From assembly GCA_002163005.1 (NCBI GenBank), contig MAAF01000076.1, forward strand, positions 1 to 64,000: DNA of 64,000 nt, in the 5' to 3' direction. The translations under genes and the position numbers were made by a program. Shown piece after piece: positions 30,452 to 61,576 of the stretch (within the stretch, counting starts at the first letter, position 1; every line of letters begins with the position of its first letter). This DNA is from Colwellia psychrerythraea. Lineage in GTDB: Bacteria; Pseudomonadota; Gammaproteobacteria; Enterobacterales; Alteromonadaceae. Under the pieces are notes generated by a model. The model did not search any database, was not told the origin of the DNA, and saw nothing but the letters and a program-made list of their open reading frames with translations.

Positions 30452-30970
30452 TTATTTTAAATAATGAATACTTTGCTCTGTTACACATTGAGTAAAACTT
30501 TTCTTGCGCTCGCTATGTGAAAGAGAAGATATCGCTTGCTTAACTAATTGCATCTTTTGATCTCGATCTGCTTTAGGTAAATGAGCAAGTTGCTCATGAA
30601 AGCAACCTAACAAACCAAAATTTAATGCCAAGTCTGATTGCATGGTATCTTCACCTAAACAGCTGTCTAGCTTTTCTGCCAAGGTGTTTTTATCCATTTC
30701 GGTGATTAAGTAGTTTAGCTTATAATCGACTTTGTCGGTTTTTCTCACCTGATTACACATAAAAAACATATCAGCAACCGCAACAACAGGAATTAATTGT
30801 TGATGCTGTTTACTAAAACGTTTTTTCAACCAGTCATTTTGAGCCTGCTCATTGCTAGGATTAACATCAACTGAAGTGCTCGCTGAGTTTACAGAATAAA
30901 GCCACCATGCTTGGCTGGGTAAAGCATAACAAGCAAGAACAACTAATAACAATTTTAACAGTATTTTCAT
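30452..30970 (-). CDS. Secreted protein of unknown function
   Basis: I do not recognise this 172-residue protein. The start at 30970 gives a good Sec signal peptide (KILLKLLLVVLACYALPSQA|WW). The mature part is mostly helical and holds four cysteines in MCNQV, DSCLG, LGCFH and TQCVT, which may form two disulfides in the periplasm. An in-frame ATG at 30997 lies inside a repeat element and spoils the signal peptide. The repeat end (30972) touches the start codon, so the element itself forms the 5' leader. It is probably a separate transcript from ompR. Confidence 0.6.
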   Translation of the reverse strand: MKILLKLLLVVLACYALPSQAWWLYSVNSASTSVDVNPSNEQAQNDWLKKRFSKQHQQLIPVVAVADMFFMCNQVRKTDKVDYKLNYLITEMDKNTLAEKLDSCLGEDTMQSDLALNFGLLGCFHEQLAHLPKADRDQKMQLVKQAISSLSHSERKKSFTQCVTEQSIHYLK

Positions 30971-30971
30971 A

Positions 30972-31238
30972 TATACCCGTTCCACTTGAAGATGCATGAT
31001 TCAGCTGGAATTAGAAACGCCTTCAGGCAAGGCATTGATTGAAGAGAATAGTTATTCTATTGTCGAAATCAATAACGCAGCATAAAGCGTTTATAAACCA
31101 GCCCCTTGGGGAAGGCTGAGCAAATCATACTCTACGTTACATTTCTTTTTAAGGGAATGACCCTTAATGAAAAAATGCGCCTTGATTATGAATCGCTCAT
31201 ACTTCCTGAAACGAGCATATTCAAGTGGAGCTGGTATA
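30972..31238. repeat. Structured intergenic repeat, copy A (267 bp)
   Basis: Terminal inverted repeats TATACCcGtTCCACTTGAA (30972-30990) and its partner 31220-31238 match at 17 of 19 bases. Inside are two nested hairpin domains. Domain 1: AAACGC (31015-31020) with GCGTTT (31087-31092), ATTGATT (31034-31040) with AATCAAT (31067-31073), and an apical AGAATA/TATTCT. Domain 2: GGAAG-TGAGC (31110-31121) with GCTCA-CTTCC (31195-31206), topped by AAGGG-aatga-CCCTT (31151-31165). It shares GGCAAGGCATTGATT and AATCAATAACGCAGCAT with copy B at 61306-61571. No coding potential was seen. Confidence 0.85.
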
Positions 31239-61131: not shown

Positions 61132-61576
61132 GGTGCTCTACTTAGTACAACAAAGTACAAAAAAATACGCTACAAAATGGGTGTTTAACAACGAGGCTAA
61201 TTATCTTAAACTTGACTATTTTAGTCAAGTATTATTCTTTACCATAATGATAGCAATCCGTATAAGAAAGTACTCACTGAACGATAATTTATGCGGAGAT
61301 AGTATTATACCAATTCCAATAAGTTTCTTCCCACTCAGCGAGAGTTAAAAGGCTTAGAGGCAAGGCATTGATTGTAGATAATGGTTTTTCCCTTATCAAA
61401 ATCAATAACGCAGCATGTAAGCCTTTTAAACTCGCCCTTCGGGAGCTTTCCAGCGACTCGATAACCGCATAGAATTTCTTTCATATAGAGTGACTATATG
61501 CAAAAAAATTCTATTTGTTCTCAAACCGCTGGTAAGCTCTGAGTGGGAACTAACTTAATGGACTTGGTATTAAGCG
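61132..61576. other. 445-bp intergenic region upstream of erpA
   Basis: More than half is the structured repeat at 61306-61571. The remaining 170 bp next to erpA should hold its promoter; an AT-rich part (61190-61260) with TTGACTATTTTAGTCAAG, a near-perfect inverted repeat at about 61210-61227, lies there. I found no clear IscR site. Confidence 0.5.
61306..61571. repeat. Structured intergenic repeat, copy B (266 bp)
   Basis: The terminal inverted repeats 61306-61338 and 61539-61571 match at 28 of 33 bases (outer part TATACCAATTCCA...). Domain 1: TTAAAAGGCTT (61345-61355) with AAGCCTTTTAA (61419-61429), ATTGATT (61367-61373) with AATCAAT (61400-61406), apical GATAA/TTATC. Domain 2: GAGCTTTCCAGCG (61443-61455) with CGCTGGTAAGCTC (61527-61539), ATAGAATTT (61469-61477) with AAATTCTAT (61506-61514), and CATATAG-agtga-CTATATG (61482-61500) at the tip. 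It has the same plan as copy A with different arm sequences. It lies between erpA and the coiled-coil protein gene. Confidence 0.87.

Follow-up and report, generated by a model that had tools for sequence, protein, structure and literature searches.

Bacterial MITEs are usually regarded as transposon ends with arbitrary filling. REPINs are non-autonomous, high-copy elements that carry a motif on each strand, and REPs have a GTAG head and are not known to duplicate their target. According to the excerpts of the literature available to us, a REPIN comprises two REP hairpins in inverted order (PMC3116915), with REPs of 20-40 nt (PMC3733652); RUP is a short, non-coding intergenic element of 107 bp with a TA target and ends like those of IS630-Spn1 (PMC2229807); ERIC (enterobacterial repetitive intergenic consensus) is 127 bp in length (PMC2229807); ERIC, IRU and RU-1 occur in Enterobacteriaceae and Vibrionaceae (PMC10969869); enterobacterial repeats duplicate TA (PMC2759123); and CIR of Caulobacter has two arms joined by a linker and a conserved RNA fold, lacks a terminal inverted repeat and carries GANTC (PMC2229807).

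Here we analysed 64,000 nucleotides of a Colwellia psychrerythraea contig (MAAF01000076.1 of assembly GCA_002163005.1; hereafter the window), in which a reading made from the sequence only had picked out two non-coding elements, A and B, with one fold and different stems. Both very probably belong to an old, MITE-like superfamily of ~260-bp elements that move as DNA, with folded arms, a transposase presumed to act in trans and a putative factor that reads the arms. New are the internal dyad, the breadth of the family and a division of the element into constant arms and exchangeable ends.

The elements share with RUP and other IS630-driven MITEs, as partly accessible sources describe them, short length, lack of coding capacity, intergenic position, a TA target and, for the Colwellia end types, a resemblance to IS630 ends. 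However, RUP has 107 bp, compared with ~260 bp here with two homologous arms in dyad and compensated stems, and one arm motif occurs here with unrelated ends across a phylum, an interior absent from the RUP descriptions in those excerpts. REPINs are similar in their hairpin dyad, their motif on each strand, their non-autonomy and their high copy number, whereas the present elements have ~98-nt arms, terminal repeats of 20-30 bp and TA or TNA on both sides. The CIR of Caulobacter, to judge from the excerpt, is alike in its two linker-joined arms and conserved RNA fold but differs in lacking the terminal inverted repeat and in carrying GANTC.

ERIC, IRU and RU-1 share a stable hairpin, TA duplication and, by eye, an end sequence like one of the two end types described below (TACCC) only. 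That A and B are ordinary ERIC repeats is nevertheless very improbable: the ends are similar by eye (TATACTC...TTGCA / ...CTTGAAGTATGACGAGTATA) and enterobacterial repeats are reported, in the excerpt of PMC2759123, to duplicate TA, but the one ERIC locus tested (L193) has no arm match, and the 127-bp unit given in the excerpt of PMC2229807 contrasts with the 263 and 262 bp of A and B and their two arms. Vibrio members of the present family may overlap with Vibrionaceae ERIC. On a Yersinia frederiksenii plasmid we noted an ERIC-like repeat of 105 bp (L192:501-605) with TACCC-type ends and no arm match.

Copies A and B and their parts

The two stretches originally described, with lengths of 267 and 266 bp, are present in the sequence, as are the two exact blocks that they share and the stems named for them. 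Their TATACC-type ends are inverted, as had been stated, but the outer TA belongs to the target and the true ends read TACC...GGTA; A is therefore 30974-31236 (TA/TA) and B is 61308-61569 (TTA/TTA). The statement that most other bases differ was slightly too strong (A and B are ~60% identical over their alignment). The two domains are real, although it was overlooked that domain 2 is the motif of domain 1 on the opposite strand. The parts are as follows.

30972..30973, no strand: target TA left of copy A (sequence)
30974..31236, + strand: copy A, 263 bp, TACCC-type ends (sequence, end survey)
30974..31004, + strand: left terminal inverted repeat of A, TACCCGTTCCACTTGAAGATGCATGATTCAG; resembles IS630 ends (Fukatsuia plasmid)
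31007..31103, + strand: arm 1 of A, hairpin motif on the + strand (arm covariance model, 73.4 bits)
31101..31111, + strand: inter-arm mini hairpin of A, GCCCCTTGGGG (sequence, RNA fold, linker survey)
31108..31205, - strand: arm 2 of A, the arm 1 hairpin motif on the - strand (arm covariance model, 76.0 bits)
31206..31236, - strand: right terminal inverted repeat of A (sequence, end survey)
31237..31238, no strand: target TA right of copy A (sequence)
61305..61307, no strand: target duplication TTA left of copy B (sequence)
61308..61569, + strand: copy B, 262 bp, TACCA-type ends (sequence, end survey)
61308..61338, + strand: left terminal inverted repeat of B; resembles IS630 ends of same-genus genomes
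61340..61437, + strand: arm 1 of B, hairpin motif on the + strand (arm covariance model, 98.1 bits)
61435..61443, + strand: inter-arm mini hairpin of B, CCCTTCGGG; the + strand reads UUCG, the - strand a GAA triloop
61441..61538, - strand: arm 2 of B, the arm 1 hairpin motif on the - strand (arm covariance model, 56.1 bits)
61539..61569, - strand: right terminal inverted repeat of B (sequence, end survey)
61570..61572, no strand: target duplication TTA right of copy B (sequence)

As single-stranded DNA, A and B fold far below their dinucleotide shuffles (z of -7.5 and -11.7; 0 of 200 shuffles folded as well in either case). The single plan claimed for both holds and recurs in RNA folds of ten diverse copies, which show a terminal stem, arm 1, a mini hairpin (lacking in some) and arm 2. 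The neighbours of A are a 172-aa ORF without a Pfam match and a thioredoxin-like gene; those of B are a gene for Fe-S biosynthesis and one encoding a DUF6776 protein. At positions 30968-30983, A ends immediately upstream of the likely ATG of a minus-strand ORF (30452-30970); the minus strand reads GGAACGGGTATATATG there, and the terminal repeat of A may provide the ribosome binding site. The ORF caller had set the start of this ORF within A, at 30997.

Copy number, range and movement

The initial picture of two copies is real but incomplete, as the arm covariance model gave at least 150 arm matches in the assembly from which the window comes, corresponding to at least 75 elements. With B as the query, at least 63 matches were obtained in the same genome (41 longer than 100 nt, the other 22 being short matches to the ends; 40 of the 194 candidates were scored), and its 179 TACCC-type end sites suggest that it holds more than 100 elements. 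The final arm model detected no third copy within the 64-kb window.

A covariance model and a search of relatives had been proposed along with the initial reading, which made its case depend on further copies in related genomes; such copies were found. Copy A was matched in all 37 same-genus genomes (its own included) and in 3 of 24 other genomes of the order. Single-arm covariance models, the E-values of which are rough, had matches in 67 of 274 genomes across the class (24%; 55 of 222 genera; 51 families, counted from the list; best E ≤1e-6 in 49 of the 67) for model R1, and in 92 of 299 genomes across the phylum (31%; 39 of 154 genera) for model R2. Fifty-eight of the 92 lie outside the class, and 52 of these belong to one heavily sampled family, f209. 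Across class and phylum, the arm-positive elements are ~260 bp in length and have ends that are unrelated between lineages. A pattern scan of named genomes returned at least 105 stretches, in Colwellia, Shewanella, Thalassotalea, an Endozoicomonas assembly and Alteromonadaceae or Gammaproteobacteria metagenome genomes, and four Pseudoalteromonas plasmid records gave left-half matches. Plasmid searches for distant elements or ends yielded nothing useful. Carriage by phages is not supported: viral contigs had no match to the Colwellia core pattern and phages had none to copy A.

No described family could be named from the sequence, and this stands for the Rfam and literature searches made here. 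In the window searched at the gathering score no Rfam family matched an element, and among 6 + 12 loci searched at E up to 1 no family reached its cut-off on an element, the best scores being 27.8 bits for M23 (cut-off 41.2) and 25.2 bits for mir-301 (cut-off 56). In the literature searched, no such family is described and the conserved-block strings are absent; some members may have been described previously. A and B are apparently members of a large, uncatalogued family of ~265-nt mobile elements.

In the Colwellia genome of A and B, the elements end in inverted TACC...GGTA and are flanked by TA (the A type) or by duplicated TWA (the B type). The core set comprised 181 non-redundant matches, of which 179 could be examined; clear terminal inverted repeats are present in 160, and the other 19 were left out for want of clear ends. 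The distance from ATACC to GGTAT is 261-267 nt in 132 of the 160, irrespective of end sequence. Three of the 160 fall in neither end group. Among the 75 TACCA-type copies, flanking triplets are identical in 56, as against 35% when the flanks of different copies are mispaired (31 TTA/TTA, 24 TAA/TAA, 1 TGA/TGA and no TTA/TAA). Among the 82 TACCC-type copies (with TACTC and TACCT), TA/TA is found in 68 (83%), and mispaired flanks agree about as frequently (81%); taken by itself, the count is evidence of a TA target and not of a duplication. As TA is nearly fixed in the flanks, the duplication for this type rests on empty sites.

In the empty-site search, 159 joined flanks yielded 12 spanning alignments; several of these fall on repeats of one gene of L081, and one is gapped beside the junction. 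Two Shewanella loci (L070 and L115) compared with L081 are clean for one TA, and in L046 a copy is nested inside another copy, for which an uninterrupted copy in L090 fits one TAA. In L081 (Shewanella saliphila), positions 650-2000 hold a gene segment in tandem repetition with element copies; the related segments of L070 and L115 carry a copy at a different site. The single-contig genome G184 has 22 copies with common 24-nt ends, 14 of them with an identical arm score, and TA lies on both sides in 12 of 15 copies inspected.

In the wider set, ends were assigned in 37 of 38 dyads (pairs of a plus-strand arm followed by a minus-strand arm) with at least 20 of 28 end positions paired; one place, covered by L255 and by L219, which lies inside it, enters the dyad, arm-match and end counts twice. 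Thirty-five of these 37 elements have lengths of 255-267 bp and the other two of 280 and 283 bp, too short for a transposase. Their flanks are TA in 25 and TNA in one, with the remaining 11 without an assigned type. Between lineages the end sequences are unrelated, yet the two ends of an element pair at 19-28 of the 28 positions.

It is shown that the copies moved as DNA, with TA or TNA on both sides. The earlier suggestion of a dispersed structured RNA fails in the sense of a non-mobile gene, which is ruled out by the flank duplications, the empty sites and the presence of same-end copies at many sites. Its other suggestion, a non-autonomous element that an enzyme mobilizes in trans, is supported by the duplications, the empty sites, the TA flanks in G184 and the IS630 link described below, with the enzyme indicated for Colwellia at best.

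Several variant forms were also observed. Remnants of 23-46 bp consist of little beyond the two inverted ends, as would result from loss of the hairpin interior in a single deletion (G032:C1:2657884-2657929, G000:C39:122567-122612, G000:C85:64342-64387, L082:2588-2620 and L304:2066-2088). Long copies of 310-313 bp occur in L073 (6600-6912), L022, L067, L087, L093 and others; in L073, L022 and L093, the short loop at the tip of arm 2 is replaced by two additional hairpins (one GCTACATGGATGTAGC-like, one GAGAATGCAGGAGCATATTCTC-like). A 443-bp element in genome G535 (L305:207-649) has the same ends as the 268-bp elements of that genome.

Arm structure, covariation and strand

The interior is a dyad, in which arm 1 carries a hairpin motif on the + strand and arm 2 the same motif on the - strand. 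The motif has a CAAGG/AACGCAG internal loop, and the two-arm consensus runs CAAGGC, a 7-bp stem, an AATGG-TTATT-CCCTT tip, a stem and AACGCAG. In 48 of 54 elements, arm 1 gives a better alignment with arm 2 when arm 2 is reverse-complemented than when it is read directly (mean z of 1.78 versus 0.25). The element of V. tritonius is not among the 48, although by eye its arm 2 is the arm 1 motif on the opposite strand. The fold plan recurs in a 267-bp element of Vibrio campbellii, the interior of which shows little identity; it is kept in V. tritonius and Photobacterium members and is less regular in V. casei.

We found 97 arm matches in 57 sources, a rate that is not an unbiased estimate because most loci, apart from the seven named below, came via model matches; how a locus was found has no bearing on whether it carries a second, inverted arm. 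Seventy-six of the 97 form 38 plus-then-minus pairs (37 distinct), in 37 of which the gap between the arms is 3-5 nt, so that each has two inverted hairpins as in the REPIN definition. Six of the seven sources without known arms (L185, L191, L192, L193, L200 and L201) have no arm match; the seventh, L202, has one weak match (E 0.002).

The claim of compensated stems was examined by covariation. There are 57 cluster representatives, 33 of which were kept in the reference list and 24, without an exact anchor, left out; 29 of the 33 entered alignment A2 and 28 alignment A3. When the arms are taken separately, both-side changes occur in 14 of 35 predicted pairs in arm 1 and in 26 of 29 in arm 2. 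For a pooled set of 110 arms (all representatives of 258-285 nt and five others; alignment A4 holds 71 of the 110), 8 of 4,560 column pairs covary at E≤0.05, all 8 within the 30-pair structure. With distant arms added (186 arms), 26 of 4,465 column pairs do so, of which 25 lie within the 32-pair structure and the 26th sits where the helix would extend outward. These values come from a tree-aware null implemented in our own script after the idea of R-scape, in which per-branch substitutions are replayed at random sites; 60 replicates were run for the 186-arm set, so the floor of E is 0.008. The compensation claimed from two copies is thus borne out by 25 structural pairs. In the distant-arm alignment A6 (from which L216, both L187 arms, L025 and L208 were left out), there are 431 cells with both-side changes compared with 116 (sd 12) in shuffles, and 27 of 29 pairs have such changes compared with 22.5 (sd 1.3). 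The structure, which was derived from A6 itself, pairs 93.9% of cells, and at most 41.2% when slid.

There is strong support for selection on each arm as a folded single strand: both sides of the stems change, whereas the CAAGG/AACGCAG internal loop and the tip are retained. A folded shape that is kept while most letters are replaced probably does something.

Mismatches and fold energies bear on the strand that folds. In folds of the 57 representatives without GU pairs, single mismatches, some of which recur in related copies, number 13 G.T and 40 A.C in arm 2 read on the + strand, an A.C excess that corresponds to wobbles on the - strand; the counts are 10 G.T and 3 A.C in arm 1 and 31 and 26 in the terminal stem. 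Arm 2 folds better as the + strand in only 8 of 50 cases (p 9e-8) and arm 1 in 30 of 50 (p 0.055), and alignment folds agree with these energies. The strand evidence for arm 1 is weak. The arms appear to act as folded single strands, on opposite strands; the terminal stem has no strand preference, so its pairing may merely mirror transposase sites.

These observations also bear on a fold without function, in which the quasi-palindrome would be kept by self-templated repair (template switching at the fork) and the loops by descent. Long palindromes do change by template switching, and the remnants of 23-46 bp suggest deletion at element hairpins. However, such repair predicts equal numbers of G.T and A.C, contrary to the 13 and 40 in arm 2, and should mend the internal-loop mismatches, yet these are among the most conserved columns; it also leaves unexplained why loops are kept across the phylum while stems turn over. 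We give this account almost no credence, and as the sole explanation palindrome self-correction is ruled out by the mismatch asymmetry of arm 2.

Candidate transposases and the reading of the arms

Both Colwellia end types, TACCA and TACCC, resemble IS630 ends. Same-genus genomes carry IS630-family genes (PF13358) with TACCA ends, and a TACCC-end IS630 is present on a Fukatsuia plasmid. Three IS630-family loci of 1,103-1,114 bp (L200, L201 and L202) have TACCA ends, with 15 of 24 positions inverted-repeated and flanks of TTA/TTA, TTA/TTA and TAA/TAA; the other 11 of the 14 PF13358 loci scanned had no convincing TACC-type ends. The IS630 of G011 (1,092 bp, TACCA ends) has matching flank triplets in only 3 of 7 copies, and in the same genome (L166-L179) IS630-family elements form tandem and nested arrays, with the transposase in two frames. 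By eye, five PF01609 loci in G000 and G032 have no matching TACC-type ends. End pairs at insertion-sequence distance in L082 and L081 proved on inspection to be the ends of separate elements or remnants.

PF13358 (DDE_3) matches were obtained in 15 of 39 same-genus genomes, and in G000 only below the cut-off. Elsewhere, DDE_3 was matched in 4 of 15 element-bearing genomes and in none of the other 11, and the IS630 ends of G184 and G259 are unlike the element ends. Neither single-contig genome, G184 or G535, yielded an insertion sequence that carries the element ends (≤3 mismatches). In G184, 44 of 45 end sites form 22 element-sized pairs and one is single, at 3 mismatches; in G535, 14 of 16 form 7 pairs, one of them 443 bp apart, and of the two unpaired sites one is a 23-bp remnant and the other has no partner within 3.7 kb. 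Evidence for an IS630 link is confined to Colwellia, given the lack of an end-sharing insertion sequence in G184 and G535, the 11 of 15 genomes without DDE_3 and the differing ends in G184 and G259. As in MITEs, the elements have terminal inverted repeats and target site duplications and are too short for a transposase; ends similar to those of an autonomous element were found in same-genus genomes and none in G184 or G535.

The same observations can be read another way, with the arms as single-stranded DNA hairpins recognized by one dedicated transposase, co-travelling or conserved, in the manner of RAYT and REP, and with no constraint on the end sequences beyond their pairing. We consider this unlikely. 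It would accommodate ends that are unrelated between lineages yet pair at 19-28 of 28 positions, the absence of a matching insertion sequence from G184 and G535 (≤3 mismatches), the 11 of 15 genomes without DDE_3 and a hairpin dyad as in REPINs. By contrast, the TACCA ends and TWA duplications match IS630 in G014, G020 and G031, and partly in G011, and the TACCC ends resemble another IS630, neither of which is predicted by a rule of pairing only; the profiles covered (DDE_3 and PF01609) gave no candidate protein.

In the explanation that we favour, an element consists of an inverted end, a hairpin arm, a mini hairpin, an inverted copy of the arm and an inverted end. A DDE transposase supplied in trans, of IS630 type in Colwellia, would cut at the ends, which would change between lineages as transposases come and go, leaving the arms as the constant part. 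The arm would be read by a factor found in very many Pseudomonadota, and one motif per strand would make the element independent of orientation, whichever strand is transcribed or is single-stranded at the fork. We see a nearly even prospect that the arm is read as folded single-stranded DNA during transposition or replication; a reading as RNA in cis, for example with a softening effect on the host transcript, is a serious candidate that we hold with reserve; and a reading as neither is improbable. We tentatively propose a phylum-wide selfish element with a folded core present once per strand that a conserved host factor reads, and with ends that serve as exchangeable handles.

Were the arms to work as RNA in cis, transcription in either direction would yield one correct hairpin, which may act, for example, as a put-like antiterminator or as a processing signal that prevents harm from intergenic insertions. 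On the motif strand, G.U exceeds A.C (384 versus 112 cells in 186 arms; 24 of 31 differing pairs), but GU pairs were permitted in predicting the structure behind this count. In 31 of 38 dyads (30 of 37 distinct), one strand of the linker has the sequence C(UNCG)G, although UNCG was found in only 14 of the 57 Colwellia-set representatives; because the opposite strand reads as a C(GNA)G triloop, a loop that is very stable in DNA, the linker cannot tell RNA from DNA. Relative to genes taken as simple ORFs, 159 copies are distributed as 52 --, 37 ++, 28 -+ and 21 +-, with 8 inside ORFs and 13 at edges. Copies lie near genes (median gaps of 25-115 nt), but divergent and convergent sites are common (28 and 21 of 159) and there is no clear orientation preference. 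The 52 versus 37 split rules out a cis-regulatory RNA of fixed orientation. For the arms as RNA in cis, we regard the case as arguable but on balance doubtful.

Returning to arms within a mobile DNA element, the filling is in the present elements the conserved part, with a strong covariation signal and no Rfam family. The elements provide many natural compensated variants together with a covariance model that finds more, and annotators could use them to name many intergenic stretches. They raise the question of which widely conserved factor reads the hairpin, whether it does so in RNA or in single-stranded DNA, and why both strands carry the motif. Near a Shewanella copy, an FMN riboswitch (RF00050, 99 bits) is present at L061:816-991.
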